DNA of 63,708 bases, taken from NCBI RefSeq assembly GCF_900119085.1, contig NZ_FPIQ01000017.1:1-63708 (forward strand). Direction: 5' to 3'. The stretch's first letter is position 1. Every line of letters starts with the position of its first letter. The translations under genes were made by a program, and so were the position numbers. Under the pieces are notes generated by a model, which was not told the origin of the DNA, did not search any database, and was given only the letters and a program-made list of their open reading frames with translations. The stretch is from Nitrosovibrio sp. Nv17 (GTDB lineage: Bacteria > Pseudomonadota > Gammaproteobacteria > Burkholderiales > Nitrosomonadaceae). This document shows, one piece after another, positions 4,826-20,625 of this stretch.

Positions 4826-5059
4826 CCGCTGCCGCCGTCGCCTCCCTTGCGGAAACGCGCCGCAACGGTGCGCAGACAGCGGCCCTGCGGATGAATGCAC
4901 GGGTTGAACGAATCGCATTCCGGACTGCCCAACCCCGTGATGGGGCGCGCTGCCGACCCCGGCGCGGCAGGCGATGTAACCGTGAAGCCTCGCCGCCAAC
5001 CTGTGCTCTCGATCCCGGATCGGGTTTCCGGCGACAGGTCCCACTGGAGAAATCGATAC

Positions 5060-5962
5060 ATGGATCCGACACGACGCCTCTCGACCCGGGCCAGGGCGGC
5101 CGCGCTGCTTCTCGCAACCGGGTGGCTGCCGCTTGCCCTGGCGCAGCCGCCGGGTGCCCACGTGCACGGCCAGGCCGCGCTGGAGATCGCCGTCGACGGC
5201 GATGTGGTGCACATCCACCTGCACAGCCCGCTGGACAGCCTCGTCGGGTTCGAGCACGCCCCGAGGAATGAAAAGGAGCGCCACGCGATCAAGGCCCTGG
5301 CGGCCCGGCTCCACCAGGCCGACACGCTGTTCGTGCTCACGCCCGAGGCCCGCTGCCAGGTGGAATCGACCGAACTGTCCTCTCCCGTGCTGTCCCCGGA
5401 TTCTTCCCCGCGCTCCCATTTCCAGGAAGAACGGCAGACCCTCGGGACGAGGGCCGCCGACGGCAGCGCATGGTCCACCGCCTCCCATGGCACGCGTCCC
5501 CGTCTCTGGCCCTCGGGGCAGGAATACGACTTCGCCTTCACCCCCATCATCCAGCTGGGCGGCGGCCGGCCCGCTGCCGTGTTCGCCCTGCCCGGCCTGC
5601 GCCCATATCCCGGCGGGGCTGGCCTGCGGTGGGAGGACACCGCCGGCACGCTCGCCAGGGCTCGCCTGCTGCCTCCGTCGTCCTATCGGGTGACTGCACC
5701 GATGCACGCGGGCAAAACCCTTTCGACCGCCAGGATTGCCTCCCAGGTGGCGCAGGCCGATCACGATGAGGAAGCTCACGCCCACGCGGAACTCGAGGCC
5801 GCATGGCAGTTCCGGTGCGCCCGGCCGCAGGCGCTTCGGGGGATCGAGGTGCGCCTGTTCCAGGTATTCCCCGATCTGCAGCGTATCGACGCCGCCGTCG
5901 CGGCCCCCGGCGGGCAGTCCGGCGCACGCCTGTCCCCCGGATCCACGCGGCTCGCGTGGTAG
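5060..5962 (+). CDS. zrgA: DUF2796 periplasmic zinc-binding protein, ZrgA-like
   Basis: A 300-residue secreted protein with a signal peptide (about 1-29, LALA-Q). His-rich segments start the mature part (HVHG, then VVHIHLHSPLDS) and a second His/acid cluster, DHDEEAHAHAE, sits near residue 240. DUF2796 proteins of this build include ZrgA of the Vibrio cholerae zinc uptake set ZrgABCDE, recalled from the literature. It heads a run of four same-strand genes: this protein, an ABC ATPase, an FtsX-type permease and a DUF3299 protein, the same company as in zrg loci. The start is set by GGAGAA eight bases upstream. A periplasmic zinc-capture role is inferred from family, His content and neighbours. 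Confidence 0.85.
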   Translation: MDPTRRLSTRARAAALLLATGWLPLALAQPPGAHVHGQAALEIAVDGDVVHIHLHSPLDSLVGFEHAPRNEKERHAIKALAARLHQADTLFVLTPEARCQVESTELSSPVLSPDSSPRSHFQEERQTLGTRAADGSAWSTASHGTRPRLWPSGQEYDFAFTPIIQLGGGRPAAVFALPGLRPYPGGAGLRWEDTAGTLARARLLPPSSYRVTAPMHAGKTLSTARIASQVAQADHDEEAHAHAELEAAWQFRCARPQALRGIEVRLFQVFPDLQRIDAAVAAPGGQSGARLSPGSTRLAW

Positions 5963-5991
5963 CGGAAGGTGCGGGCGATCGATCCGGAAGC

Positions 5992-6705
5992 ATGAGCCCG
6001 AGTCCGCTTGCGATCGCTGTGCAGGACCTGGTGTTTCAGTGGCCCGCCCGGAACCAGGCGGGATTTCGCCTCTCCATTCCCCGGTTCGAGGTGGAGCGCG
6101 GCGAGCGTGTGTTTCTGCAGGGGGCGAGCGGCAGCGGCAAGAGCACCCTCCTGAGCCTGCTGGGGGGCGTGCTGCGGCCACAGCCCTGCCGCCTGCGCGT
6201 GCTGGACACCGACCTGACGGCGCTTTCATCCAGCGACCGGGACCGCTTCCGCGTGGACCACGTGGGTTTCCTGTTCCAGCAATTCAACCTGGTTCCCTAC
6301 CTCTCGGTGCGCGAGAACGTATTGCTGCCCTGCCGCTTCTCCCGGCACCGGCGGCGGCAGGCGCTGCAGTCGGCCTCCTCGCTACAGCAGGCGGCGGACC
6401 GGTTGCTGCAGCGGCTGGGGCTGGATGGCAGCCTCGCCCGGCAGCCGGTCACGGCGCTGTCGGTGGGCCAGCAGCAGCGCATCGCCGCGGCGCGGGCGCT
6501 GATCGGCCACCCGGAGCTGATCATCGCGGACGAGCCGACCTCGGCCCTGGATGCGGACCGGCAGGGAGAATTCCTCGACCTGCTGCTGGAACGCTGCGCC
6601 GATGATCGCGTCACGCTGGTCTTCGTCAGCCACGACCAGCGGCTGGAATCGCGCTTCACCCGGAGCGTGAGACTGGACGACCTGTGCGCAACCACCCCCT
6701 GCTGA
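5992..6705 (+). CDS. zrgB: ABC transporter ATP-binding protein, LolD/MacB type (ZrgB-like)
   Basis: A 237-residue ATPase with Walker A GASGSGKST near residues 43-51, Q-loop FLFQQFN, a signature read as LSVGQQQR instead of LSGGQ, and Walker B LIIADEPTSALD followed by VSHD. It belongs to the LolD/MacB/FtsE group that pairs with FtsX-like permeases, and just such a permease follows. It begins 29 bases after the DUF2796 gene. The signature with Val in place of the first Gly is unusual but seen in this group. It probably energises the partner permease rather than importing zinc by the classical ZnuABC route. Confidence 0.88.
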   Translation: MSPSPLAIAVQDLVFQWPARNQAGFRLSIPRFEVERGERVFLQGASGSGKSTLLSLLGGVLRPQPCRLRVLDTDLTALSSSDRDRFRVDHVGFLFQQFNLVPYLSVRENVLLPCRFSRHRRRQALQSASSLQQAADRLLQRLGLDGSLARQPVTALSVGQQQRIAAARALIGHPELIIADEPTSALDADRQGEFLDLLLERCADDRVTLVFVSHDQRLESRFTRSVRLDDLCATTPC

Positions 6706-6763
6706 TCCGCCTGCATGCGCCCGCACCCGGCACGATCCGGCCTGCCGTGGTGAGAGGCGACCC

Positions 6764-8026
6764 CTGAAGCCCCTGCTCTCCCTGGCGCTTGCCAGCGCGT
6801 GGAACCGCCACGCCACGCTCGGCCTGATGGCGATCAGCATCGCGCTCTCGGTCATGCTGCTGCTGGGCGTCGAGCAGCTTCGCATCCAGGCACGCGAAAA
6901 TTTCACGCAGTCCATCTCCGGCACCGACCTGGTGGTGGGGGCGCGCACCAGCCCGATCCAGCTGGTGCTCTATGCGGTGTTCCGCCTCGGCGACGCCACC
7001 CACAACATCCGCTGGACCAGCTTCCAGGCGGTGGCTGCGCATCCGGCCGTGGCATGGGCGGTGCCGCTCTCGCTGGGCGATTCGCATCGCGGCCACGCGG
7101 TGGTGGGCACCACGGCCGCCTACTTCGAGCATTTCCGCTACGGCGACCGCCAGCCGCTCGCCTTTTCCGCGGGCCAGCCGTTCGCAGACGTATTCGACGC
7201 CGTGATCGGCGCCGAGGTGGCGGCGCAGTTCGGCTACCGCCTGGGCGACCGCATCGTGCTCAATCACGGCAGCGGCGGCATCGGCCTGGCCGAGCATGCC
7301 GACAAGCCCTTCACCGTAAGCGGCATCCTCAGGCGCACCGGCCTGGCGGTGGATCGCAGCATCCACGTCAGCCTGGAGGCGATCGAGGCCATCCACCTCG
7401 ACTGGCAGGGGGGCGCGCCCATGCCCGGCGTCTCCATCCCGCCCGAGCATGTGCGCAAGTTCGACCTGGCGCCGAAGGAGATCACGGCCGCGCTCATCGG
7501 CCTGAAGAATCGCGCGGGCGTGTTCCAGATGCAGCGCTTCGTCAACCGGTACCAGGGCGAGCCGCTGCTGGCCGTCCTGCCGGGGGTGGCGCTGGACGAC
7601 CTTTGGAGTGTGGTCGGCGTGGTCGAACGTTCGCTGCTGGCGATTTCCGCGCTGGTGGTCGCAGTGGGCCTGAGCGGCCTGGTGGCGGTCGTGCTGGCGG
7701 GCCTGAGCGAGCGCCGGCGCGAACTGGCGATCCTGCGCTCGGTAGGTGCGGGGCCGCGCGTGGTGTTCCTGCTGCTCGCCATCGAAGGGTTGATGGTGGT
7801 GGTTGCGGGCGCGGCACTGGGCGTGCTGGGGCTGATGGGACTCGGCGCCCTGGCCGCACCCATGGTGGAAGAGCACCTGGGCGTCACGCTGTCGGCAAGC
7901 ACGCTGACTCCCGAAGCCTGGCGCCTGCTGCTGCTGGTCATGGCCACGGGCTTCGCCGTCAGCCTCGTCCCGGGCTATCGCGCCTACCGGCTGTCGCTGG
8001 CGGACGGCCTCACTCCCAGACTGTGA
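6764..8026 (+). CDS. zrgC: ABC transporter permease, FtsX-like (ZrgC-like)
   Basis: A 420-residue permease with an N-terminal membrane helix, a large periplasmic domain (about residues 60-290) and three C-terminal helices carrying SERRRELAILRSVGA, the FtsX/MacB-type coupling segment. The first in-frame ATG (6827) would cut off the conserved LALASAWNRHATLGL leader just before helix 1. A CTG at 6764 has GAGAGG six bases upstream and restores that leader, so I place the start there; there is no in-frame ATG or GTG between. It is the membrane partner of the ATPase at 5992. Confidence is high for the gene and moderate for the start. Confidence 0.85.
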   Translation: MKPLLSLALASAWNRHATLGLMAISIALSVMLLLGVEQLRIQARENFTQSISGTDLVVGARTSPIQLVLYAVFRLGDATHNIRWTSFQAVAAHPAVAWAVPLSLGDSHRGHAVVGTTAAYFEHFRYGDRQPLAFSAGQPFADVFDAVIGAEVAAQFGYRLGDRIVLNHGSGGIGLAEHADKPFTVSGILRRTGLAVDRSIHVSLEAIEAIHLDWQGGAPMPGVSIPPEHVRKFDLAPKEITAALIGLKNRAGVFQMQRFVNRYQGEPLLAVLPGVALDDLWSVVGVVERSLLAISALVVAVGLSGLVAVVLAGLSERRRELAILRSVGAGPRVVFLLLAIEGLMVVVAGAALGVLGLMGLGALAAPMVEEHLGVTLSASTLTPEAWRLLLLVMATGFAVSLVPGYRAYRLSLADGLTPRL

Positions 8027-8046
8027 TCCAAAGGAGGATACCTGCC

Positions 8047-8658
8047 ATGTCGCTCGCCCGAACCTGTCTTGCCCGCCTTCTTCCTCTCGCCGCCGCCCTG
8101 GCGCTCGTCGCGCAACCACCCGCAGCCACCGCCAGGGACTACGCGATCGGGGAAAAGCTGCAGGCCTCCCCGCCGCGCGCCGCCAAGGGCAAACCCGCTA
8201 CCGGCGTCGGCTACAAGGAAAAGACGTGGGACGACCTGATGCCCAAGGATTGGGATCCGATGGCGCCGCTGAAGGGACTGAAGCTGGACAACCTGCAGGA
8301 CAGCGACCCGCGCGCCATCGAGGCACTGGAGAAGATACGCGCCGCCTGGACCGATGCGCCCATCGAACCCTCGCTGGACGGGGCCCGCATCCGCATCCCC
8401 GGCTTCGTGATTCCCCTGGAGCGCGCCGGCGGCAAGGTGAGCGAATTCCTGCTGGTTCCCTACTTCGGCGCCTGCATCCACACCCCGCCGCCGCCTTCCA
8501 ACCAGATCATCCACGTGCGCGCGGCGAAGCCCGCAATCAGCATGCGCACCATGGATACCATGTGGGTCAGCGGCACGCTGCACGCCGGCAAGGTCGACAC
8601 GGAAATGGGCCAGGCGGGCTACCGGCTGAGCGCCGAGTGGATCACCCCCTACCCGTGA
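8047..8658 (+). CDS. zrgD: DUF3299 periplasmic protein (ZrgD-like)
   Basis: A 203-residue secreted protein. The signal peptide is residues 1-29, followed by the DUF3299 core: WDDLMPKDWDP, a stretch ending GFVIPLE, then LLVPYFGACIHTPPPPSNQ and a C-terminal MGQAGYRLSA segment. The conserved Cys-Ile-His sits in the middle of that core. The ribosome site AAGGAGG is nine bases before the ATG and 20 bases after the permease stop, so it is the last gene of the zrg-like operon. Its biochemical role is unknown; the set of neighbours points to zinc acquisition. Confidence 0.85.
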   Translation: MSLARTCLARLLPLAAALALVAQPPAATARDYAIGEKLQASPPRAAKGKPATGVGYKEKTWDDLMPKDWDPMAPLKGLKLDNLQDSDPRAIEALEKIRAAWTDAPIEPSLDGARIRIPGFVIPLERAGGKVSEFLLVPYFGACIHTPPPPSNQIIHVRAAKPAISMRTMDTMWVSGTLHAGKVDTEMGQAGYRLSAEWITPYP

Positions 8659-9362: not shown

Positions 9363-9693
9363 AAGTACGGTGAAATTTCTCCTTATGCATCAATTAGCTG
9401 ATGCGAGATCGGGCCTACGGAGCTCCGTCTGCGACCCGATATTCTGAATCACCCCTGAATCAACCCGATCGCGCGCTTCCACTCGGCGTTGGCAATGGCG
9501 AGGACATCGAACGTCGGTGTATCTTGGGCCGGCGCCCGAAAAGCCGGCTTTTCCGCCATGATGAGCGAAGGTCACTTACCTCATGGAAACATCTCTATTG
9601 ATAATGTAATCTCATTATATTATGATTCCCCCCATGGACCATGATACGGGCAGGCGTGCCGGCTGCCTTCCATTTTCATCCCCAGGGGGTCTC
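9363..9693. other. Intergenic, carries operator site a
   Basis: No gene is seen. The stretch holds the promoter region of the PEP-CTERM protein at 9694, including the operator-like site at 9596-9617. Confidence 0.5.
9596..9617. promoter_or_regulatory. Putative Zur/Fur-type operator, site a
   Basis: A 22-bp site starting TATTGATAAT and ending TCTCATTA. It aligns without gaps to the sites at 12896 and 16890. It sits 76 bases before the start of the PEP-CTERM gene at 9694. All three sites precede PEP-CTERM genes within a cluster of zinc-homeostasis genes, so Zur is the likely binder; iron-Fur cannot be excluded by sequence. Confidence 0.6.
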
Positions 9694-10536
9694 ATGAACA
9701 GGAACGGATGCTCCACCATGGCGCTGGCGGGAACTCTCGCCCTCGCAGCCATATCCCTGCCCACGCACGCGGCCAGCTACGACATTCTGATCGGCGCTTC
9801 GGGGAGGCAGCTCACGACCAGCTTCTTCGCCCACGGCGCCCTGCCGCCGGGCGGCGGCTTCGCCACCGACTTTGCCAGCGGACAGAACCTGTACCCGACT
9901 GACTTCGGCGATTTCGGCGGCGGTCCGCGTGCGACCAACGATCCCGGTTTCCAGAGTTTCGCCGGCACCCTCGACCCCGGCGCCATCGTCTCCATCCAGG
10001 GCATCGGCAGCCTGGAGTACTGGGCGCCCGCGACCCAGGCGTGGTCGGCGCCCGCCGGCGGAGAGCTGCTGCGGCTGCACGGCGCGGTGCCGACGGATAT
10101 CGCCTTGGCGTACACGTTCTGCCAGAGCGGCGGCCCGCTCTGCGACCGGGCATTGGCCGAGCAGTATCCGTTCTACGCCGCCGGCACCGTATTCTCGGCA
10201 AGCGGCATTTCCGGGCCCAACCCCGCGATCGTCGACGATGCGGATTCCCAGGGCGCTTTCCACGCCCACCTGGACTGGTTCATCGAGAATCCCGGCGGGA
10301 CCCCCGCACCCGGCGCCTATCTCGTCACCTTCGCGATCGTCGCGGACGGCTACCAGGCATCCGAGCCGGTCAAGGTGCTGTTCAACTACGGCCTGACGGA
10401 GGCCCAGTACCTGCTCGCCTTCGACTCCCGGGTGCAGCCCGTCCCGGAACCGCCGGCCGTGGGGCTGATGCTGGCCGGGCTCGGATTCCTGATGCTGTGG
10501 CTGCGCCGCCGGGCGCCGGCGGCCGGCATCGCCTGA
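9694..10536 (+). CDS. PEP-CTERM protein, putative zinc-regulated surface protein
   Basis: A 280-residue secreted protein with a signal peptide (1-27, ending HAA). A segment DFGDFGGGP (residues 70-78) followed by TNDPGF is shared with the protein at 13012. A FHAHLDW motif lies at 189-195, and a C-terminal sorting signal follows: PEP at 251-253, a hydrophobic helix, and an RRR tail. Exosortase would remove the tail and anchor the protein at the cell surface. The ATG is chosen by AGGGGG four bases upstream. It ends three bases from the convergent TonB receptor. The HAH motif and the upstream operator suggest a zinc-related role, which is inference. Confidence 0.8.
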   Translation: MNRNGCSTMALAGTLALAAISLPTHAASYDILIGASGRQLTTSFFAHGALPPGGGFATDFASGQNLYPTDFGDFGGGPRATNDPGFQSFAGTLDPGAIVSIQGIGSLEYWAPATQAWSAPAGGELLRLHGAVPTDIALAYTFCQSGGPLCDRALAEQYPFYAAGTVFSASGISGPNPAIVDDADSQGAFHAHLDWFIENPGGTPAPGAYLVTFAIVADGYQASEPVKVLFNYGLTEAQYLLAFDSRVQPVPEPPAVGLMLAGLGFLMLWLRRRAPAAGIA

Positions 10537-10539
10537 TGC

Positions 10540-12729
10540 TCAGAACATCAGCTCCAACCCCAGTTCGACGCTGCGCCCCGGTTCCGGGCTGAAACTGCGA
10601 AGAAAGGACGTGGCGCTGCGTATCTCCTCGTTGAGCAGATTGCGTGCGCGCAGGAAGAGGGAGCCCGGCCGGCCCATGATCTTCTGCCGATAGGCGGCAT
10701 GCAGGGTCAGGAGGTTGTAGCCCTTGGTCTCAGTCTCGTTGATGCCGGGGCGGTCCTGTGCGTGGGCATGGGTGTAGCGCACCCGCGCGGACCATGGTCC
10801 CGAGGCGGTTGCGACCTGCACCCCGTAGCGCAGGGGCGGCTGCCGCGGCACATTCTCGCCGCTTGCCCGCAGGCGGGCGTGCACGTAGTCCGAGAACAGC
10901 GTGATCTCGACCGGCGGCGCGATACCCGCGGGCATGCGCAGCGTGGCCTCGGCCTCGTATCCCATGAAGCGCGCGCGCGCCTGCTGGTACTGCGTCACCG
11001 GCAGGCACTCGTCCAGGCTCACGCAGCGGGCGCGGAATCGTCCCTCCTCGGCATCGAAGAAGATGCCGGAAATGCTGCGCTGGAAGATGAAATGGTCCGC
11101 ATCGTTGAGGAACAGGGCGCCATTGAAGCGTATCCATCCCGCATCCGCATCCCAGGTCAGGTCGAGGCTGCGCATCGATTCCGTCCTCAGGTTCGCATTG
11201 CCGACGTCGAAGGTATGGGTGGCGAGGTGCGGGCCGAAGGAATACAGCTCGTGCACCTCCGGCGCCCGCCGGGAGCCCGAGAAGATGACGCCCACCATGC
11301 TCTTCTCGGCGTACTGCCACGTCAGTGAAATGGAACGGTTCTCCAGGCCGAAGCTGCGCGCGGGAAAATTGAGGATGCGCCCGTCGACCGTCGGCTGCGG
11401 GCCCGATACCAGCCTGATCCGGTCGTAGCGCCACCCCCCTTCGAGGCGCAGCGCCGGCGTGATGTCGAGCCGCTCGTGGATGTAGGCCGCGGTGCTGAAC
11501 GTGTTGGTCTCGGGGATGAACGCCTCGGCTCCCAGGGCGGAAAAATCGCGGTTCATCATCTGCCCGCCCACCACCCCGGATATGCGCGAACCCAACCGGT
11601 GCTCCACCTCCAGGCGCCCGTCCAGGGCCTGGTTGCGGAACGTGGTTGCGATCACGCTGCCGGATTTCTCGTGGTGCCGGTAGTTGACCCGGCTGACGTT
11701 CAGCCTGACTGCGTCGATCCACTCGCCGGATCCCCACAGCTCCACCCGGCCGTCATAGCGGCGGTTCGCGAGGTCGATGCCGACGTCGCTGCTGCCGCCG
11801 CCATGGGCATGCGAACCCGCGCTGGGAGGGATGCCGTAGACGTTGTCCAGCAGGGTGGCCGAGGCGCCCACCATTCCCGCGTCCGCGAACAGCGCCCCGC
11901 CCACGCTGCCCCCCTGGGCCTGCGCGCCGCTGTTGGCGACGTGGCCGCAGGTGTTGCGCACGTTGATGAGGCCGAACTGCTGGCGGATGGCCGCGTCATC
12001 GACGGCGCAGCCGTTGATGGAGATATTGTCGCGGCGGCGCATGAAGCCGTCGACGTGCATCGCGAAGCGCCCCGCGCCGGCATCGAGCTTGAAGGCATGG
12101 GTATGCTCGTTGCCGTTGAAGTTGTAGCGCGACTGCAGCATGCCCTGGACGGGAGATCGCGGGACACGGCGCGGAATGCGGTTGTCGATCACGTTCACGG
12201 CGCCGCCGATGGCATTGCCGCCATGCCGGATGGTGGCGGGTCCGCGCATCACCTGGATCTCGTCCGCGAGGATGGATTCGATGCTGGCGGCATGATCCGG
12301 GCTGAACGTCGTGGCGTCGTGCGTGGCCAGCCCGTTGCTCAGCAGGCGCACGCGCTGCCCCGACATGCCGCGGATCACCGGCAGGCCCACCCCCGGCCCG
12401 AAGGTGGAGTTGGAGACGCCGGCCTCGTCGGTCAGCGTCTCCCCCAGGGTATTGCCGATGCGCTCCCGGAGCGCCTCCCCGCGCAGCTTCACGGCGGGAC
12501 GGGGCGGTTCTGGCGACACGTCCTCCTCCGGTGCGGCCCTGATCTCGATGGACTTGAGCACCGTCTCTGCATCCGCTTCGGGCCTGGCCGCAGTCTCCTG
12601 CCGGGTGTCCGGGAATGCCGGGGGCGCACTCGACTGCGCCAGCGCTCCGGGCAGGCCGACCGTGGCGATGAGACCCGCCATCGCCATGCATGGCAGGGCC
12701 GCAGGCGGCACGCGCAGATCAGGCGGCAT
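10540..12729 (-). CDS. znuD: TonB-dependent receptor, ZnuD-like zinc receptor
   Basis: A 729-residue outer-membrane receptor. It has a signal sequence (about 1-31) and a plug domain with VRLLSNGLATHD and RGPATIRHGGNAIGGAVNVIDN (broken family motif, about 126-183). A 22-strand-type barrel follows, ending in the aromatic ELGLELMF. His-rich stretches fall in predicted outer loops: EHTHAF near 208-213, SHAHGGG near 306-312, and RHHEK near 351-355. ZnuD-type zinc receptors carry such loops. It is transcribed away from the operator-like site at 12896 and lies beside zinc genes. Zinc as substrate is a well-supported inference; copper or another metal is possible. Confidence 0.85.
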   Translation of the reverse strand: MPPDLRVPPAALPCMAMAGLIATVGLPGALAQSSAPPAFPDTRQETAARPEADAETVLKSIEIRAAPEEDVSPEPPRPAVKLRGEALRERIGNTLGETLTDEAGVSNSTFGPGVGLPVIRGMSGQRVRLLSNGLATHDATTFSPDHAASIESILADEIQVMRGPATIRHGGNAIGGAVNVIDNRIPRRVPRSPVQGMLQSRYNFNGNEHTHAFKLDAGAGRFAMHVDGFMRRRDNISINGCAVDDAAIRQQFGLINVRNTCGHVANSGAQAQGGSVGGALFADAGMVGASATLLDNVYGIPPSAGSHAHGGGSSDVGIDLANRRYDGRVELWGSGEWIDAVRLNVSRVNYRHHEKSGSVIATTFRNQALDGRLEVEHRLGSRISGVVGGQMMNRDFSALGAEAFIPETNTFSTAAYIHERLDITPALRLEGGWRYDRIRLVSGPQPTVDGRILNFPARSFGLENRSISLTWQYAEKSMVGVIFSGSRRAPEVHELYSFGPHLATHTFDVGNANLRTESMRSLDLTWDADAGWIRFNGALFLNDADHFIFQRSISGIFFDAEEGRFRARCVSLDECLPVTQYQQARARFMGYEAEATLRMPAGIAPPVEITLFSDYVHARLRASGENVPRQPPLRYGVQVATASGPWSARVRYTHAHAQDRPGINETETKGYNLLTLHAAYRQKIMGRPGSLFLRARNLLNEEIRSATSFLRSFSPEPGRSVELGLELMF

Positions 12730-12895
12730 GAAGTCGGACGGCGCACAAGGAAGGACGCCGGGAGGCCCTATGCTTGTGTTTATGGCGGCGGGCGGCCAGC
12801 CCCGCCACGTGCCGCGAGAGGGACGTCAGGAGCCCCGGGGCGCCGGATGAGCGAAGGAGAAGGGTTGTTGACAAAGCCTGGGACGTCCATTATAT

Positions 12896-12917
12896 TATTG
12901 ATAACGAGTTCTCAATA
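12896..12917. promoter_or_regulatory. Putative Zur/Fur-type operator, site b (divergent promoter)
   Basis: A 22-bp site beginning TATTGATAAC and ending TCTCAATA. It lies between the TonB receptor (start 12729, minus) and the PEP-CTERM gene (start 13012, plus), so one bound dimer could control both. Confidence 0.6.
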
Positions 12918-13011
12918 GTATTATATGAGATCCCGTTCCGGAAAACAATCTTGCCGGTTTCATGGAGGCAGCTGCTTCGTGAGCCGGATGCAACCTTTCA
13001 TGGAGGACATG

Positions 13012-13740
13012 ATGTTCAAACCCCTACGCGTCACCCTGGGCACAGCACTCGCCGCGCTGTCGCTCATCCTTTCTCCCCAGGTCCTGGCGCACAGCGACAT
13101 CGAGGTATCGGTGGTCGGCGGCAAGCTGGTCGTCGACGAGGAAAACCATGCGCCGGCCGCGTTCGGCACCGGCTACAAGATCTTCGAGGGCGATTTCGGC
13201 GACCTGGCGGGCGGCCCCCTGGGAACCGACGATCCCGGATTCCTGGCGTCGGGCGGAACCTTCCTCTCCGGCGAGCAGCTCTGGTACAACGGACTCGGTA
13301 CGCTCAGCTTCTGGAACGGCTCCAGCTGGGGCGCAGCACCCGGCGGCGTCACGCTGGGGGTCGAGGACGCGCTCGGCAGCACGACGCTCTTTTCCGCCAG
13401 CGGCGTGACGAACTCCCTGGGTGCCATCGACCAGTCCGATTCCGGCGGCGGCATCCACGCCCACATCGACTTCGCGGTCTCCGACCTGAACCCGGCCGGC
13501 GCCTACCTCGTCACCCTCTCGCTCACCTCGCTTGATGCCAGCGGCGGCCTGCCCGCGCCCTACGCGGACAGCGACCCGTTCCACATCGTGTTCAACCGCG
13601 GGTTGAGCGGCGAAGCGTTCGAGGCGTCGATCGCCACCCTCACCACGCCGGTGCCGGAACCGGAAAGCTACGCCATGTTCCTCGCCGGCCTGGCGCTGTG
13701 CGCCCAGGTCGTCCGGCGGCGCCAGCGCCGCAACGGCTGA
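13012..13740 (+). CDS. PEP-CTERM protein, putative zinc-regulated surface protein
   Basis: A 242-residue secreted protein. The signal peptide is 1-26 and the mature chain starts HSDIEV. It carries DFGDLAGGP at 61-69 with TDDPGF after it, and IHAHIDF at 148-154. The PEP sorting motif at 215-217 is followed by a hydrophobic helix and an Arg-rich tail. It is a paralogue of the protein at 9694 with about the same motif order. The second of two adjacent ATGs is preferred because GGAGG is five bases upstream of it. It is divergent from the ZnuD-like receptor and shares its operator region. A surface zinc-binding role is inferred from His motifs and context. Confidence 0.8.
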   Translation: MFKPLRVTLGTALAALSLILSPQVLAHSDIEVSVVGGKLVVDEENHAPAAFGTGYKIFEGDFGDLAGGPLGTDDPGFLASGGTFLSGEQLWYNGLGTLSFWNGSSWGAAPGGVTLGVEDALGSTTLFSASGVTNSLGAIDQSDSGGGIHAHIDFAVSDLNPAGAYLVTLSLTSLDASGGLPAPYADSDPFHIVFNRGLSGEAFEASIATLTTPVPEPESYAMFLAGLALCAQVVRRRQRRNG

Positions 13741-13751
13741 TCCCCTCCGTC

Positions 13752-13782
13752 CGCCCCCGGCCCCTCGCCGGGGTCGGGGGCG
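13752..13782 (+). terminator. GC-rich terminator-like hairpin
   Basis: Thirteen-base arms (CGCCCCCGGCCCC / GGGGTCGGGGGCG, one mismatch) lie 12 bases after the PEP-CTERM stop. No T run follows, so termination efficiency is uncertain. Confidence 0.45.
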
Positions 13783-13869
13783 CCGCGTCCGGCAGGCCGG
13801 ATGAGGCGCTGAAATACGATTCCATGCCATCCGCAATCCGGGCATGGCCGCAACCCCTCTCCACACCTG

Positions 13870-16422
13870 ATGAGCATGCGCTCCGCACACCGGGCTCCTC
13901 CGTGGATCCCGCCGTCCGACATGCCCGACCGGCGGCACCTGCTTCTCTATCCCATCTTCACGATATCGGGCGCAGCCGGACTGGGGTATCAGTTCGTCTG
14001 GACCAAGATCCTGGCACTGGCCCTCGGGCACGAGTTCTCCAGCCTGATGGGGGTCGTCACCGCGTTCTTTCTCGGCCTGTGCCTGGGGTCATGGGCGGCT
14101 GACCAGCCGTTCCTGCGGCGCTTCGGCGGCCTCCGGCTCTACGCCATGGCGGAGGCGGCGATCGCCGTTTCCTCGGCGCTGGCGTTCCACATGGAGCCAC
14201 TCCTCTCGACCCTGGCCCACGCCCTGCTGGGAGCGGCGCCTGCCCCGCTGTTCCAGTGGTTCATCAGCTTTTCGCTGCCGCTCGTGCTGCTGCTGCCGGC
14301 GACGGTGGCGATGGGCGCGACCTTTCCCGCCATGGAGCGGCACGTGTCGCACACCCTGCCGCACCGCGGGACGGTAGCCGGGCTCTACGCCGCCAACACT
14401 GCGGGCGCCGTTCTCGGCGTCCTCGCCAGCGCCTACGTCCTGATGCCGGCCATCGGGCACGGCGCGGCGCTTTTCCTGTTCGTCCTGACCAACATGGCAT
14501 GCGCCGGCAGTGCGTGGGTGCTGGCCCGGATCGAGGGGTCGGCGGCAGCGGATGCGCTTTTGCGAACACGGGCGCCCCTCGGGGCGAGAGCCGCCCTGCT
14601 CCTCTTCACGACCGGCCTGCTGGGCATCGGGCTGGAAGTCGTGGCGGTGCGGGTGCTGGCACAGGTGTTCGAGGGGACGGTATACAGTTATGCCGCAGTG
14701 CTGGCGGTCTATCTGCTCGGCACGGCAGCCGGTGCGGCCTGCTATCGCCACGCCACGCGGAGCCGGGACTCGCAGCGTGTGCGATCCCTCCCCGCGGGCT
14801 TGCTGGTCGGCCTGGCGCTGGCCACCCAGCTGGCAGTCGCGACCCTGGACGGCGCACGGGGCGCCTACCGCGCCAGCCGTCTGGCGCTGGGCGACTCGCT
14901 GGCCGCCGTCATCACCTCGGAAGCCATGATCGCCGCGCTGACACTGGCGCTGCCCACCCTGCTGATGGGCGCCCTGTTCAGCCATCTGGTGCAGGCGTGC
15001 CGGGATCGGGACGCCTCCGTCGGCGCGGCCGTGGCCGTGAACACGCTGGGCTCGGCATGCGCCGCAGCCCTGTTCGGCATCGCGGTGCTGCCCCAGGCGG
15101 GTGCGCGCGGAGCGCTCGCGCTGCTGGGATTCGGCTATCTTGCCCTGCTGCCGCTCCTGCCCGCTTCTTCCCCCGCGCCCTCCCGGCGGAAATCCTGGCT
15201 GGCCGGCGCCGCGGCAGCCGGCGTGGCCGGCCTGGCGCTGGCGCTGGCGGTGCCCGGCGAGTTGAGGATCATCACGCTGCGGCAGGGCGAGTGGGTGGTC
15301 GAGCACCAGGAAGGCGTCATGGCGTCGGTCGCCGTGATCGGAAAGGGCGGCGAGCGCAACCTGCGTGTCAACAACCGCTACCAGATGGGCGGAACCGCAC
15401 GCGACGCCGTGCGCCTGCAGTCGCGCCAGGCGCACGTCCCCCTGCTGCTGCACCCGCAGCCGCGCACCGCCCTGCTGCTCGGCGTGGCCTCGGGGGTGAC
15501 CCTGGGCGCGGCCACGCGACATGCCGATCTGCGCATCGACGCTGTGGAACTGGTGCCGGAGGTCATCGGGCTGCTGCCGTTCTTCGAACCCCACAATGCC
15601 GCACCCCAGCGGAACCCGCGCGTCCGGCTCGTCAACGCGGATGCACGGCGCTTCGTGCGGGCGGCGAACGGCAGTCTCTACGACGTCGTGATCGGCGATC
15701 TGTTCCATCCGGCGCTGGATGGCGCCGGCGCCCTCTACACGCGCGAGCACTTCACCGCCATCCGCAGCCTGCTGGCGAGAGGCGGGCTGTTCTGCCAGTG
15801 GCTGCCCCTCTACCAGCTCGACGAGCCCACGCTACGCACCATCGTCGCCACTTTCCTGGAGGTGTTCCCGGAGGCGGCGGCGATACTCGCCGACGAGAAC
15901 CTGGAATTTCCGGCGCTGGGCCTGGTAGGCGGGATGCCGCGCCTGGATCGCACCCGCGGCAGTGCCGGCGATCCCCGCCTGGCGGAGCACCTCGAGGGAC
16001 TCGGCCTGCGCGGCCGCGTGGACTGGGCCGGCACGTTCCTGGCGGATGCGCCGAGGCTGCGGGAATACGCCGGCGATGCACCGATCGGCACCGACGACCA
16101 TCCCCGGGTGATCTACCTTGCGCCCCGATTTGCCGCCCGGCGGGGCACGCTGTCGTACGGGCGCCTGCCCGCCCTGCTGGCCGACGATCCGGCCGGCGCA
16201 TACCGCCAGGGCGGCGACGCCCGCCTGGCGAGCCATGTCCGCAGCCGCAACCTGGCCCTGTGGGGGCAGATCGCAGAACGCGAGGGACGCCTGGACGAAG
16301 CGCTCGGCCTCTATCGCGCCAGCGCGGCGCTCAACCGGGACTACCGCCCGGCGCAGGAAAGAATGAGGCTGCTCGAACGGCACCTGCAGCGCCGACAATC
16401 GCCCAGCTCAGGCGTTCAGTGA
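13870..16422 (+). CDS. Fused polytopic membrane / spermidine synthase-like protein
   Basis: An 850-residue protein. Residues about 15-460 form 12 or more membrane helices starting LLLYPIFTISGAAGLGYQFVW, the usual opening of fused MFS/spermidine synthase proteins. Residues about 475-740 are a Rossmann methyltransferase-like domain with LLLGVASGVTLGAA, then DAVELVPEV, then VRLVNADARRFV and YDVVIGDLFHP, as in spermidine synthases. The C-terminal 80 residues look like a TPR-type helical hairpin. Starts at 13870 or 13921 are both possible and neither has a good ribosome site. It overlaps the convergent zur gene by seven bases. Real polyamine synthesis is unproven for this fused family. Confidence 0.85.
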   Translation: MSMRSAHRAPPWIPPSDMPDRRHLLLYPIFTISGAAGLGYQFVWTKILALALGHEFSSLMGVVTAFFLGLCLGSWAADQPFLRRFGGLRLYAMAEAAIAVSSALAFHMEPLLSTLAHALLGAAPAPLFQWFISFSLPLVLLLPATVAMGATFPAMERHVSHTLPHRGTVAGLYAANTAGAVLGVLASAYVLMPAIGHGAALFLFVLTNMACAGSAWVLARIEGSAAADALLRTRAPLGARAALLLFTTGLLGIGLEVVAVRVLAQVFEGTVYSYAAVLAVYLLGTAAGAACYRHATRSRDSQRVRSLPAGLLVGLALATQLAVATLDGARGAYRASRLALGDSLAAVITSEAMIAALTLALPTLLMGALFSHLVQACRDRDASVGAAVAVNTLGSACAAALFGIAVLPQAGARGALALLGFGYLALLPLLPASSPAPSRRKSWLAGAAAAGVAGLALALAVPGELRIITLRQGEWVVEHQEGVMASVAVIGKGGERNLRVNNRYQMGGTARDAVRLQSRQAHVPLLLHPQPRTALLLGVASGVTLGAATRHADLRIDAVELVPEVIGLLPFFEPHNAAPQRNPRVRLVNADARRFVRAANGSLYDVVIGDLFHPALDGAGALYTREHFTAIRSLLARGGLFCQWLPLYQLDEPTLRTIVATFLEVFPEAAAILADENLEFPALGLVGGMPRLDRTRGSAGDPRLAEHLEGLGLRGRVDWAGTFLADAPRLREYAGDAPIGTDDHPRVIYLAPRFAARRGTLSYGRLPALLADDPAGAYRQGGDARLASHVRSRNLALWGQIAEREGRLDEALGLYRASAALNRDYRPAQERMRLLERHLQRRQSPSSGVQ

Positions 16423-16787
16423 CGGCATTCGCTGCACTGCCCGTACAGGATCAGGTCGTACTTCTCGATCACGAAGTCGCGGGGAGCCAGGAGATGGCTC
16501 TTCTTGATGCGTTCGTGTATGTCGAACACCCGGCTGCAGGAACTGCACTTGAAGTGGTAGTGATCGTCCAGCCTGGCCATCTCGTAGCGATCCGCCTCGC
16601 CCGGCAGCCTGACCGGCAGTATCCACCCTGCAGCCACCAGATCCTTCACCGTTCGGTAGACCGTCGCGATGCTGAGCGATGGCACGCTGGCCCGGCCCGT
16701 TTCATGTATCTCCTGGGTGGACAGGGGCCGGCCCGCCTCCGAGATGACGTCCAGTATCGCATTGCGCTGTCGGGTATTGCGTTCCAT
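16416..16787 (-). CDS. zur: Fur-family transcriptional repressor, likely Zur
   Basis: A 123-residue Fur-family protein. It has an N-terminal winged helix (TRQRNAILDVISEAGRPLSTQEI, recognition segment SIATVYRTVKDLV, about residues 1-75). The C-terminal half has HYHFKCSSCSRVFDIHERI, with a structural-zinc CxxC, and a closing QCSECRH CxxC. At 123 residues it is shorter than most iron Furs and closer to Zur/PerR-size members. It sits among zinc genes and its promoter faces the perfect inverted repeat at 16888-16913, which suggests autoregulation. The metal is inferred from context. Confidence 0.85.
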   Translation of the reverse strand: MERNTRQRNAILDVISEAGRPLSTQEIHETGRASVPSLSIATVYRTVKDLVAAGWILPVRLPGEADRYEMARLDDHYHFKCSSCSRVFDIHERIKKSHLLAPRDFVIEKYDLILYGQCSECRH

Positions 16788-16887
16788 ATCACCTCGGCAC
16801 GATCAGAGCGGCGGACTCATCGATCCGCCGCATGCAATAAAAAAGGGCCAGCCTGCACAAAATGATCCCGCATCGCCTTGACTATAT

Positions 16888-16913
16888 GCTATTGATAACT
16901 TATTATCAATAGC
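16888..16913. promoter_or_regulatory. Putative Zur/Fur-type operator, site c, perfect inverted repeat
   Basis: Eleven-base arms GCTATTGATAA and TTATCAATAGC around CTTA form a perfect palindrome of 26 bp. Its 22-bp core at 16890-16911 aligns with sites a and b. It lies between zur (start 16787, minus) and the all3515-like gene (start 17026, plus). Confidence 0.7.
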
Positions 16914-17025
16914 ACCATGCATGCCGCTGGCGGCGGCCCGCCGATGACGGCAGGCGGCCACCACGCGCATTCGTGGCAAGAAACGTGGGCAGGGCCCATT
17001 TTATAACCGCAGAAGGAGAATGTAT

Positions 17026-17874
17026 ATGCGCCTCATACTACGCAATACCACTGGAGGAACCGCCCTGGGTCTGGCCGGCCTGATGATCCTGGCATCCCTC
17101 GACGCCTCGGCGTCGTCACGGCATGACGAAGGCATCGGCTTCTACGTCGGTTACGATGCCCTGGCCACCATCGCCTCCGGCACCTATGCCAGTCTTTCCA
17201 ACCCCAATGCGGATCGTCTCACTCTCCTGCTCGACCATGGCAACCATTTTCATGGCATCGGCACGTACGGCTATGCCGGCCCCGCCGGCGCGCCGGAAAT
17301 ACTTTCCACCAACTCGAACAACCGGATTCCTGAAATCTCCTCCCGCGAGGATCCTCTTCCCCTCACGGCGGGCAGCGGCCTGTACGGCGGAACGCTGCGT
17401 TCCGGCGTAGGCGATTCCGAATACAGCTACCTCGGCATCGCCTCCATCCAGTCCCTGGCGGGCCATGTTCCCGGCGGCGTGGAAGACGTGCTGTTCCACA
17501 GCAGCAGCAACCGCTGGTCGGGCACGCTCGACGGTGCGCAGATCGCCCTCAGGCTGGTGAACAGCACGCCCGGCCTGCACATCGGGACCGAAGCCATCCG
17601 TGACGCGTACAGCGGCAGTGACGTATTCGCACTGGGAACCGGAAACGACTTCGAGTTCAAGCCGATCTACTGGGTGGATGCAGACGCCGCCGCGGGAGTG
17701 TATTCCGCCACGTTCGAACTCCTGAACACCAGTGCGGAATCACCCCTGCTGAGTTCGGGTACGTTCAGCTTCGATTTTGCCGTCTCGCCCGTTCCGGAGC
17801 CGGAAACCTACGCGATGTTCACCGCCGGGCTGTTCCTGCTGACCTGGGGCGCCCGCAGGCGCGCGCGCCGCTGA
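17026..17874 (+). CDS. All3515-family Zur-repressed-type PEP-CTERM protein
   Basis: A 282-residue secreted protein with a signal peptide (about 1-31) and [13 protein letters not shown] at residues 71-83, the His-rich signature of the all3515-type family. It ends in a PEP sorting signal at 257-259, a hydrophobic helix and a basic tail. Anabaena all3515 is known as a zinc/Zur-controlled gene; that link is from family knowledge. The second ATG (17026) is chosen because AGAAGGAG lies seven bases before it. The palindromic operator at 16888 precedes it and a 14-bp hairpin follows. It is probably a surface protein that holds zinc, as inferred from the HxxHxH motif. Confidence 0.85.
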
Positions 17875-17894: not shown

Positions 17895-17929
17895 AGCGCT
17901 TCCCCATTTTATTTGAATGGGGAAGCGCT
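17895..17929 (+). terminator. Perfect 14-bp hairpin between PEP-CTERM gene and COG0523 gene
   Basis: Arms AGCGCTTCCCCATT and AATGGGGAAGCGCT pair perfectly around a 7-base loop. No T run follows, so it may be a weak terminator or RNA-processing site that tunes expression of the downstream metallochaperone operon. Confidence 0.55.
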
Positions 17930-17956: not shown

Positions 17957-19213
17957 ATGACGACAACGGACACGCGCCTGCCGGTAACGGTACTCTCCGG
18001 ATTCCTGGGCGCAGGCAAGACCACCCTGCTCAACCACGTCCTGGCGAATCGCGCGGGGCTGCGCGTCGCGGTCATCGTCAACGACATGAGCGAAATCAAC
18101 ATCGACGCCTCGCTGGTCGAGCGCGGCGCCGAAAATGCCGGCGCGGCGCTGTCGCGCACCGAAGAGAAGCTGGTGGAGATGAGCAACGGCTGCATCTGCT
18201 GCACGCTGCGTGGCGACCTCCTCGCGGAGGTGCGCAAGCTTGCGGCGGAGGGCCGCTTCGACTATCTCATGATCGAGTCGACCGGCATCGGGGAACCCAT
18301 GCCGGTCGCCGCCACCTTCGATTTCCGTGACGAACGCGGCGATTCGCTCAACGACCTGGCCCGCATCGACACCATGGTCACGGTGGTGGATGCGGTCAAC
18401 CTGCTGGACGACTACGCCAGCGAGGATCTGCTGGCGCAGCGCGGCGAGGTGGCGGGTGACGGGGATGAACGCACCCTGGCGGGCCTGCTGGCGGAGCAGA
18501 TCGAGTTCGCGGACGTGATCGTGGTCAGCAAGGTCGACCGCGTCGGCCAGGCAAGACTGGATGCCGTCATCGGGACGATCAGGGCGCTCAATCCCGTGGC
18601 TGACATCGTGCATGCCGAGCATGGCCGGGTGCCCCTCGACAGGATACTGGGCACCGGCCGCTTCGACCTGGATCGCGCCAGCGCGATGGCGGGCTGGGCC
18701 AGGGAACTGGCGGGCGAGCATACCCCGGAAACCGAGGAGTACGGCATCGGCAGCTTCATCCTGCGCATGTGCGAGCCCCTACACCCGCAACGGTTCGCGG
18801 CCTTCCTCGGCCTGCCCCTGGCCGGCATCCTGCGGGCCAAGGGCTACGTATGGCTGGCCAGCCGCCCCGAATGGGCGATCGCCTACTCCCGTTCCGGCAA
18901 CACCGCCTCGGTGGAACCGGTGGGACGATGGTGGGCGGCGGTCCCCCGAAAACAGTGGCCCGCCCGGGGAAGCCGGGAGCGTACCCTGATCGAACGGAAC
19001 TGGCGCAAGCCCTACGGGGATCGCATCAACGAGATCGTCTTCATCGGGCGCCACCGCGAGTGGGATCGAGCGGTGATCGAGGCGGCTTTTTCCGCCTGCC
19101 GGCTGACGCCCGCGGAAATCTCCCGCGGCCCGGCCCACTGGCGCACCCTGTCCGACGATCTCCCCGAATGGTCGGCGATCCCTCTCGTGGAAGAGGCGCT
19201 GGATCCGTCATGA
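17957..19213 (+). CDS. COG0523 (CobW-like) GTP-binding zinc metallochaperone
   Basis: A 418-residue G3E-family GTPase. The P-loop GFLGAGKTT is at 15-23, the metal-binding CxCC (NGCICCTLR) is at 79-82, the ESTGIGEP switch is near 115-122, and the VVSKVDR base motif near 192-198 replaces NKxD. The C-terminal CobW domain has the conserved [10 protein letters not shown]. Zinc-linked members (ZigA, YeiR) are Zur targets and hand zinc to apo-enzymes under starvation. It is coupled by an ATGA overlap to the 79-residue protein and then to the DksA paralogue, the same order found in pseudomonad zinc operons. Confidence 0.92.
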
Positions 19214-19449
19214 GCGCGATCATCCCGGAGACGTTCGAGGAATGGCGCCACTGCATCGAGCACGACTGCGGCATTGCGCTGACCGCAAAATTCGTGGAAG
19301 AAAGGCTGGCGATATTGTGCGAGCCACGGCATGAGGAAACCCGCCGTTTCGTGCGGCACTACGGCGAGGCGCACCGGCAGCGGATCGTGGCCTGGTTCGA
19401 GCGAATCCCCGGAAGGGCCGCAGGTCCCGCATCGCGGCCTCCCCCATGA
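19210..19449 (+). CDS. Small conserved protein of zinc operons, unknown
   Basis: A 79-residue protein with paired Cys residues (HDCGIAL, LCEPRH) and an [25 protein letters not shown] segment predicted to be helical. It starts in the ATGA overlap with the COG0523 gene and ends in an ATGA overlap with the DksA paralogue, so all three are translated as a coupled unit. I recall similarly small proteins in this position in other COG0523-dksA2 operons, but no function is known. Confidence 0.75.
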
Positions 19450-19901
19450 TCCGCGCCGACTCTCGCGACGGCCTCATGAAAAGCCAGGAAGCCTCCCGAC
19501 CAGCAGAAAATCCGGAGCATCCCGTGCCGCCGGGCGAATACATGTCGCCGGCGCAGCGGGCATTCTTCCGCCAGTTGCTCGAAGAGGAACGGGATGCCTT
19601 GCTGCAAAGCGCCCGCAGCACGCTGGAGCAGATGCGCAGCACCGATTCGGAACCGGATCCCAGCGACCGCGCAAGCACGGAAGAAAAATTCTCCCTCGAG
19701 TTCCGGGTGAGGGACCGCGAACGCAAGCTGCTGGGGAAGATCGAGGAGGCCCTGCAGCGTATCGAGAACGGCACCTATGGCTGGTGCGCGGAGACGGGTG
19801 AACCGATCGGCATACCGCGCCTGCTGGCACGCCCCACCGCCACCCTCTGCATTGAGGCACAGGAGCGCCACGAGCTGCTGGAACGCGGCCATCGACCTTG
19901 A
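19446..19901 (+). CDS. dksA2: DksA paralogue lacking two zinc-finger cysteines (DksA2-like)
   Basis: A 151-residue DksA/TraR protein with the coiled-coil region (about 45-105, with DPSDRAS at its tip region) and a C-terminal zinc-finger fold. Normal DksA has CxxC-x17-CxxC. Here the motif reads WCAETGEPIG and ATLCIEAQ, so the second and fourth cysteines are Thr and Ala. Pseudomonas DksA2, which works without zinc during starvation, is changed in the same way in principle. It would keep the ppGpp/RNA-polymerase response running when zinc is scarce. It overlaps the previous gene by ATGA. Confidence is high. Confidence 0.9.
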   Translation: MIRADSRDGLMKSQEASRPAENPEHPVPPGEYMSPAQRAFFRQLLEEERDALLQSARSTLEQMRSTDSEPDPSDRASTEEKFSLEFRVRDRERKLLGKIEEALQRIENGTYGWCAETGEPIGIPRLLARPTATLCIEAQERHELLERGHRP

Positions 19902-19941: not shown

Positions 19942-20625
19942 ATGCCCGCCGCCCTCTGCAAGCCATCTCCTCCCCTCGCCGATTCCGCGCGCCGGCCATA
20001 CGCGTGCACGACGCGGCAAGCGGAAGACCTGGTCCGAATCTTCGATGCAGGCATGCAGGTCGTCCGCTGGCGACGCCGCGCCGACCCCGCCATCACCGCC
20101 TTTCTGCAACAGGCCGCGGCAAGCGGCGCCCTGGGGAGCGGCTTTCGCACCACCGTCGCAGCAAACCGGCGAGTCGATCCGGCCCTGCTGCCGGACGGAC
20201 CGGATCGACTTGCCATGATCGATGACATCCATGGGCTCTCGTCGCTGTATTCCGACCTGCTGGGATGCCCGGCCGTGGGCCTGCGCCTGGAAGTGCTGCG
20301 CCACGCCATGTGCCCGCGCTTCCACGTGGACCGCACCGGGATACGCCTGACGTGCGCCTACCTGGGGCCAGGCACCGAATGGATCGATGATGCGGGAGTA
20401 GACCGCGACCGGCTTGGCCGCGGATCCACCGGCCTGCCCGACCACGCTTCGGGCCTGTTCGACCGCGGAACCACGGTGGAAGCCGCCTGCTCCTTCGACG
20501 TGGTGCTGCTCAAGGGCACGCTGTGGCCGGACAACGCCGCCCGCGGCGCGATTCACCGCTCCCCGGCCGTTCCCTCCGTGGACGAGCCTCGCATCCTGCT
20601 CGCGATGGATGCGATCTGGAATTGA
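19942..20625 (+). CDS. DUF1826 domain-containing protein (zinc-regulon associated)
   Basis: A 227-residue protein that fits DUF1826. It has an N-terminal helical part, then LRLEVLRHAMCPRFHVDRTGIRLTC split by conserved His/Cys (about 115-140), a YLGPGTEWID segment, and a C-terminal VVLLKGTLWPDN with AIHRSPAVP. The HxxxxPRFHVD pattern suggests a metal site. DUF1826 genes are repeatedly found in Zur-controlled COG0523 clusters. It starts 40 bases after dksA2 and is probably the last gene of that operon. Its function is unknown. Confidence 0.85.
   Translation: MPAALCKPSPPLADSARRPYACTTRQAEDLVRIFDAGMQVVRWRRRADPAITAFLQQAAASGALGSGFRTTVAANRRVDPALLPDGPDRLAMIDDIHGLSSLYSDLLGCPAVGLRLEVLRHAMCPRFHVDRTGIRLTCAYLGPGTEWIDDAGVDRDRLGRGSTGLPDHASGLFDRGTTVEAACSFDVVLLKGTLWPDNAARGAIHRSPAVPSVDEPRILLAMDAIWN

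Follow-up and report, generated by a model that had tools for sequence, protein, structure and literature searches.

A candidate zinc-starvation regulon joining PEP-CTERM proteins, a ZnuD-like receptor and a Fur-family regulator in Nitrosospira

Described zinc systems and the gene content of the island

Bacteria from the environment have many PEP-CTERM proteins, most of them with no known function. A Zur-controlled PEP-CTERM zinc protein is already known: ZepA, of the all3515 family, is described as Zur-repressed in Anabaena and among its homologs, a 16-bp palindrome stands before proteobacterial zepA genes, and the zepA neighbors named there are genes for COG0523 and DksA proteins, TonB receptors and other PEP-CTERM proteins, and a Fur-family gene (PMC10957091). 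The part of that report available to us describes no boxes at other PEP-CTERM genes or at a receptor and no change of box between lineages, and the string "nitroso" is absent from its main text as available. Within the portions of papers reached by literature searches on PEP-CTERM proteins with Zur, TonB-dependent receptors and zinc, we found neither PEP1 and PEP2 (see below) as receptor partners nor such a change of box. Also comparable are the E. coli-type Zur repressor, the zinc-piracy receptor ZnuD, and the ZrgABCDE zinc uptake system of Vibrio. In Zurs of solved structure, the sensor site is formed by N2OS ligands including a cysteine, and the sensor-site ligands are not strictly conserved among Zurs (PMC6103462).

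The host of the island described here is a soil ammonia-oxidizing bacterium, Nitrosospira, and the window is the whole stretch of DNA that was analyzed, 63,708 nucleotides. With a probability of roughly 0.8, we read the island as a small autoregulated zinc-starvation regulon whose Nitrosospira-type operator would be bound by a Fur-family protein encoded within it, FUR-A. The genes are as follows.

4895..8658, plus strand: ZrgA-like protein, ABC ATPase, FtsX-like permease (by eye) and DUF3299 protein
9694..10536, plus strand: PEP1, a PEP-CTERM protein and paralog of PEP2
10540..12729, minus strand: ZnuD-like TonB-dependent receptor (NF038289, 300.4 bits; plug and barrel above the Pfam cut-off)
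13012..13740, plus strand: PEP2, a PEP-CTERM protein (translation may begin further upstream, at 12925)
13870..16422, plus strand: fused membrane/spermidine-synthase-like protein, downstream of PEP2 and a possible operon partner
16416..16787, minus strand: FUR-A, a Fur-family repressor of 123 amino acids and candidate zinc sensor
17020..17874, plus strand: zepA (PEP3), all3515 family, Zur-repressed PEP-CTERM zinc exoprotein (NF040463, 279 bits, cut-off 75)
17957..19213, plus strand: ZigA-like COG0523 zinc metallochaperone GTPase (NF038288, 560.7 bits, cut-off 600)
19446..19901, plus strand: DksA-like protein that keeps 2 of 4 zinc-finger cysteines, as read from the sequence
19942..20625, plus strand: DUF1826 protein

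The zepA gene belongs to the same family as the published one, whose 16-bp motif 2 may correspond to the present box, and its product carries the ZepA zinc motif H-X2-9-H-F/Y-H in the form HGNHFH. A hairpin, GCTTCCCCATT...AATGGGGAAGC, lies between zepA and zigA at window positions 17898 to 17926 and may tune read-through. DksA forms without a full cysteine finger function without zinc. The receptor has the ZnuD model as its best NCBIfam match and falls under that model's cut-off of 950 bits, so it is named ZnuD-like only; it differs from ZnuD in being flanked by two PEP-CTERM paralogs. The ZrgA-family and ABC genes have counterparts in the Vibrio system as far as its available description goes, and no box of their own appeared in the matrix scan of the window (below); no box was found either at the single ZnuA homolog of the genome.

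Loosely filtered in six frames for PEP-CTERM tails, the window gave nine rows, of which three are real tails and belong to the three genes with boxes; the six others were dismissed by eye as spurious frames. All three proteins exceed the TIGR02595 cut-off (16 bits), PEP2 alone also exceeds that of PF07589, and the genome encodes two exosortases (PF09721 matches above cut-off). PEP1 and PEP2 are homologous to each other and both keep an HxH pair. Residues H190 and H192 of PEP1 are invariant in 12/12 alignment rows, as are H27, H149 and H151 of PEP2 in 13/13, and H151 is still nearly invariant in a 16-row alignment that includes three planctomycete-lineage records. Family-model searches with the two proteins gave no match beyond the PEP-CTERM tails, and a structure model of PEP2, a predicted beta-sandwich, returned no clear structural relative.

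The two genes flank or adjoin the receptor gene in Nitrosospira, in Methylobacillus and in several Burkholderiales metagenome-assembled genomes, and what is new here is this unnamed paralogous pair flanking a ZnuD-like receptor in several Burkholderiales. The zepA gene is rare, occurring in 12 of 399 sampled genomes of the order, the present one included, and in 10 of the 23 in the genus. The fused membrane/spermidine-synthase-like gene behind PEP2 was also seen in a second locus (L121) and partly in a third (L062). In genome G005, a single open frame of 2145 codons (L061:2222-8659, minus strand; the same in L072) encodes a PEP1-like domain fused to passenger repeats, an autotransporter barrel, and the plug and barrel of a ZnuD-like receptor; if real and no assembly fault, this fusion would put a PEP1 domain at the cell surface together with the receptor.

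Candidate operator boxes and the predicted promoters around them

A preliminary description of this DNA had claimed three gapless shared sites before all three PEP-CTERM genes, and the claim was borne out. The pattern TATTGATAAYNNNNTATCAATA, with up to 3 mismatches, matched the window at 9596, 12896 and 16890 only, where 0.01 matches are expected by chance (mean of 100 shuffles), and identities between pairs of sites are 17/22, 17/22 and 18/22. Matrix scores of 28 to 34 bits are likewise far above chance: the next-best place in the window reached 9.7 bits, and the maximum over 20 simulated windows was 4.4. The matrix was built from Nitrosospira sites and refined on the same 22 Nitrosospira regions that were then scored; support independent of its training comes from the pattern scans of the window, the genome and the genus, and from matrix scores at loci outside the genus. 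The sites at 12896 and 16890 do lie in divergent promoters, one shared with the ZnuD-like receptor and one with the Fur-family repressor, as had been stated. The promoter calls below are consensus matches only, with 0.2 to 0.4 expected per stretch, and the spacer is 17 bases throughout.

9596..9617, plus strand: operator box 1, upstream of PEP1, 28.1 bits
9598..9626, plus strand: sigma-70-like promoter TTGATA-17-TATGAT, its -35 element inside box 1
9602..9622, no strand assigned: second palindrome TAATGTAA-N5-TTATATTA, overlapping box 1 and like the box of other Burkholderiales, with 3 mismatches
12868..12896, plus strand: sigma-70-like promoter of PEP2, TTGACA-17-TATATT, abutting box 2
12896..12917, no strand assigned: operator box 2, in the divergent promoter of the receptor (minus) and PEP2 (plus), 31.0 bits
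16878..16906, plus strand: sigma-70-like promoter of zepA, TTGACT-17-TATTAT, overlapped by box 3
16881..16909, minus strand: sigma-70-like promoter of the Fur-family gene, TTGATA-17-TATAGT, overlapped by box 3
16890..16911, no strand assigned: operator box 3, in the divergent promoter of the Fur-family gene (minus) and zepA (plus), 34.2 bits

The third site had been called a perfect 26-bp palindrome, which it is not: 22 of 26 positions are symmetric, with perfect 11-bp arms around CTTA, and 24 of 28 when one base more is taken on each side. The self-symmetry of site 1 is just 14/22. The scan with TATTGATAAYNNNNTATCAATA of the whole genome (2.84 Mb in 56 contigs) added one place only beyond the window, at C35:114438, an AT-rich stretch that we read as glycosyltransferase coding sequence.

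As in E. coli-type Zur regulation, a Fur-family repressor gene is found together with a palindrome lying over promoter elements. The 23-bp E. coli-type consensus agrees with site 1 at 14/22 positions; 8 places in the window reach this level and none exceeds it. For sites 2 and 3, the agreement is 11/22 and 10/22, levels reached at 344 and 1,108 places.

The positions of the boxes relative to the promoters vary, which fits a repressor that blocks polymerase. An explanation by conserved AT-rich promoter or hairpin elements with no repressor at all could draw on the promoter hexamers contained in the boxes and on a strong box in G410, a genome that lacks FUR-A; we consider it extremely unlikely, as both arms are kept at differing promoter positions across the three sites and a different palindrome occupies the same genes in relatives.

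The Fur-family regulator and its association with the box

FUR-A is a Fur-family protein by sequence (PF01475, 72.3 bits, cut-off 23.1). It differs from E. coli-type Zur in falling far below the NCBIfam Zur equivalog model (PRK11639, 15.6 bits against a cut-off of 167), and for this reason it is called Zur-like by context only. Its cysteines C81, C84, C118 and C121 form a Cys4 structural zinc site and are invariant in 14/14 ortholog rows; these four are all the cysteines that the window protein has, with no fifth. The metal is the weakest link in our reading: FUR-A has four cysteines, lacks the additional one that sensor sites of solved Zurs contain, and scores below the Zur model, so that we infer zinc as its signal from the gene content and from ZepA. 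The genome holds two Fur-family genes, a Fur on C52 and the FUR-A gene in the window. For Nitrosomonas europaea, the available part of one report gives three Fur-family genes, one of them grouped with Zur (PMC3050691).

Within Nitrosospira, FUR-A is present in 12 of 23 genomes at 68 to 100% identity, and every one of the 12 has a box beside it (25.8 to 34.2 bits), between FUR-A and zepA in 10 and between FUR-A and zigA in 2. In the fetched Nitrosospira loci that have these genes, boxes stand at PEP2 in 5/5 and at PEP1 in 4/4. Of the 22 Nitrosospira regions, only one does not pass: in L133, the stretch that precedes a distant receptor has no box (6.3 bits). PEP1, the receptor and PEP2 occur together in the fetched stretches of 4 of the 12 FUR-A genomes (G000, G384, G408 and G412); among the remaining fetched FUR-A stretches, PEP2 was found in G400 only.

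A scan of the genus with at most 2 mismatches gave 25 distinct places, 18 of them in this island. One, a fourth site in G408 (C202), lies about 110 bases before a MerC gene that is followed by a NicO gene, and six are without a visible zinc link (G000 C35, G399, G417, G417 C24, G413 C78 and G410 C3). The last of these is a 32.7-bit intergenic box (L127:4325, G410 C3:433825) with no zinc genes nearby; since it is strong and its genome has no FUR-A, it argues against a strict one-to-one reading of box and regulator. A backward control pattern at 3 mismatches also matches in many Nitrosospira genomes, so single weak matches mean little. On the side of the G408 site opposite to MerC-NicO, a stretch (L120:3949-4483) resembles a receptor plug (32% over 77 amino acids) and is perhaps a remnant. 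At L123:3892 and L126:3985, in G399 and G417, a box-like palindrome, TATTAATTAYTAATTATCAATA, adjoins the start of a gene for an N-acyl amino acid synthase of the FeeM type, a family assignment tested for L123 only.

Outside the genus, FUR-A was searched for in 12 zepA- or PEP2-bearing genomes of the order. Relatives were found at 54% identity in G052 and 55% in G175, and at 48% in a second G052 copy and in G272; the best identity in the other nine genomes was 23 to 30%. In G052 and G175, the 54 to 55% ortholog adjoins PEP2 and the receptor, and the receptor/PEP2 promoter holds the best matrix match, at 18.7 bits in G052 and 10.7 bits in G175 (simulated maxima of 5.1 and 5.5, 60 simulations each). 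No other locus among the 19 from outside the genus, none of which had been used in training, scored as high, and G175 has a second match of 6.9 bits in the PEP1/ZepA promoter. The third-best score, 10.3 bits, lies away from the module in the AT-richer Methylobacillus locus L075, whose own simulations reach 10.6. In G272, where the 48% homolog is on another contig, no such box was found at the fetched module locus (best score -6.1), and the zepA locus of G052 itself (L054) carries another palindrome instead. The link between box and regulator is thus good for the group at 54 to 100% identity, and it gains no support from the 48% group.

The half-site GATAAY of the boxes is reminiscent of Fur boxes, and weak matches of the receptor extend to heme and siderophore receptor families, as would be expected if the boxes belonged to the iron regulator Fur on C52 and the set answered to iron. 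We regard this as very unlikely. The Fur 19-mer matches the three boxes at 10, 10 and 12 of 19 positions, levels reached at 596, 596 and 22 places in the window, and all 23 Nitrosospira genomes have a Fur-family match at 26 to 30%, yet the box at zepA or zigA occurs only with FUR-A, a co-occurrence that is partly trivial because this box adjoins the FUR-A gene. We instead take FUR-A as the probable cognate repressor in a local regulon for zinc, given the box kept beside it in all 12 genomes, the box beside its 54 to 55% orthologs, and the other palindrome in relatives.

For this regulon we propose the following mechanism. A metal-loaded FUR-A dimer, most likely loaded with zinc, would bind the inverted repeat ATTGATAA-N4-TTATCAAT and so cover a -35, -10 or start region, blocking RNA polymerase. 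When zinc is scarce, the dimer would leave the DNA, and zepA, PEP2, the ZnuD-like receptor, PEP1 and the repressor gene would be switched on, presumably along with zigA, dksA and the DUF1826 gene behind zepA if there is read-through from zepA to zigA. Zinc supplied by surface-sorted ZepA and, in a putative capture role, PEP1 and PEP2 would then cross the outer membrane by way of the receptor. The earlier suggestion of a local regulon that joins zinc uptake to surface-anchored proteins is thus supported, by the box kept at the same promoters, by the promoter overlap and by the gene content, and more weakly by the box outside the genus where a FUR-A ortholog adjoins. That one of the three PEP-CTERM genes is the published Zur-repressed zepA had not been anticipated in that suggestion.

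A different palindrome at the same genes in relatives

Module promoters in other Burkholderiales often carry TAATGCAA-N5-TTGCATTA. With up to 4 of 16 mismatches, this palindrome occurs in 14 of 34 upstream stretches from outside Nitrosospira (0.33 expected), a set with approximate gene starts in which some members probably fall outside promoters and two pairs, L055/L056 and L065/L068, nearly duplicate each other; the Nitrosospira box, with up to 3 of 16 mismatches, occurs in 0 of the same 34. Among 21 Nitrosospira stretches, the relation is reversed, with the other palindrome in 1 (0.47 expected) and the Nitrosospira box in 19 (0.07 expected); in the remaining two, the box has 4 mismatches. 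That the motif might be a lineage-specific operator, as first suggested, is therefore supported by relatives with another palindrome at the same genes. Genome-wide, at 3 mismatches, the signal of TAATGCAA-N5-TTGCATTA is not clean, the ratios of forward to backward matches being 6:0 in G052, 17:2 in G025, 19:8 in G072, 7:1 in G005, 4:0 in G272, 3:1 in G175, 2:1 in G254, 1:1 in G393, and 4:1 in the present genome.

The nickel Nur box, given as tTGCaa-N5-ttGCAA in the available part of PMC3919588, is similar to the palindrome found in the relatives. This resemblance, the lack of a fifth cysteine in FUR-A, and the position of the fourth G408 site before MerC and NicO (a nickel-transport family) would all suit a FUR-A that senses another metal, such as nickel or manganese, with the island as a mixed metal-starvation regulon. 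Such a regulon seems unlikely to us, as ZepA and the ZnuD-like, ZigA-like and ZrgA-like proteins belong to zinc families, and the boxes of the window match Nur at 7/12 positions, as do 1,012 places.

Going beyond the zinc-starvation regulon itself, we tentatively suggest, at somewhat less than even odds, that PEP1 and PEP2 serve the ZnuD-like receptor as dedicated partners in zinc capture, forming with it a two-sided zinc machine at the cell surface and an exosortase-sorted counterpart of the pairing of a receptor with a surface lipoprotein, run by a Fur-family zinc sensor of a kind unlike the known Zurs, and that operator and regulator were exchanged in sister lineages. The boxes at PEP1 and PEP2 extend the published ZepA story, and the conserved common operator gives these unnamed families a testable zinc-capture role beside a TonB receptor. 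The module may also be a natural case in which a regulon was retained while its operator and regulator were exchanged.

Further copies of the other palindrome were seen in several genomes (gene names in L140, L143 and L145 were assigned by reading). One copy in G072 separates a Fur-family gene from a DksA gene, and another, in G254, precedes a NicO-like gene by about 90 bases. G052 has copies at zepA and at two further Fur-family genes, which stand in tandem with palindrome copies of 0 to 2 mismatches near ZigA and zepA (L143 and L054). Two Fur-family proteins beside this palindrome were aligned with FUR-A and are 24 and 30% identical to it. In three Methylobacillus species, the receptor/PEP2 promoter contains the palindrome three times, repeated every 18 bases, at these positions:

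L064: 9694, 9712 and 9730
L066: 9863, 9881 and 9899
L075: 8789, 8807 and 8825
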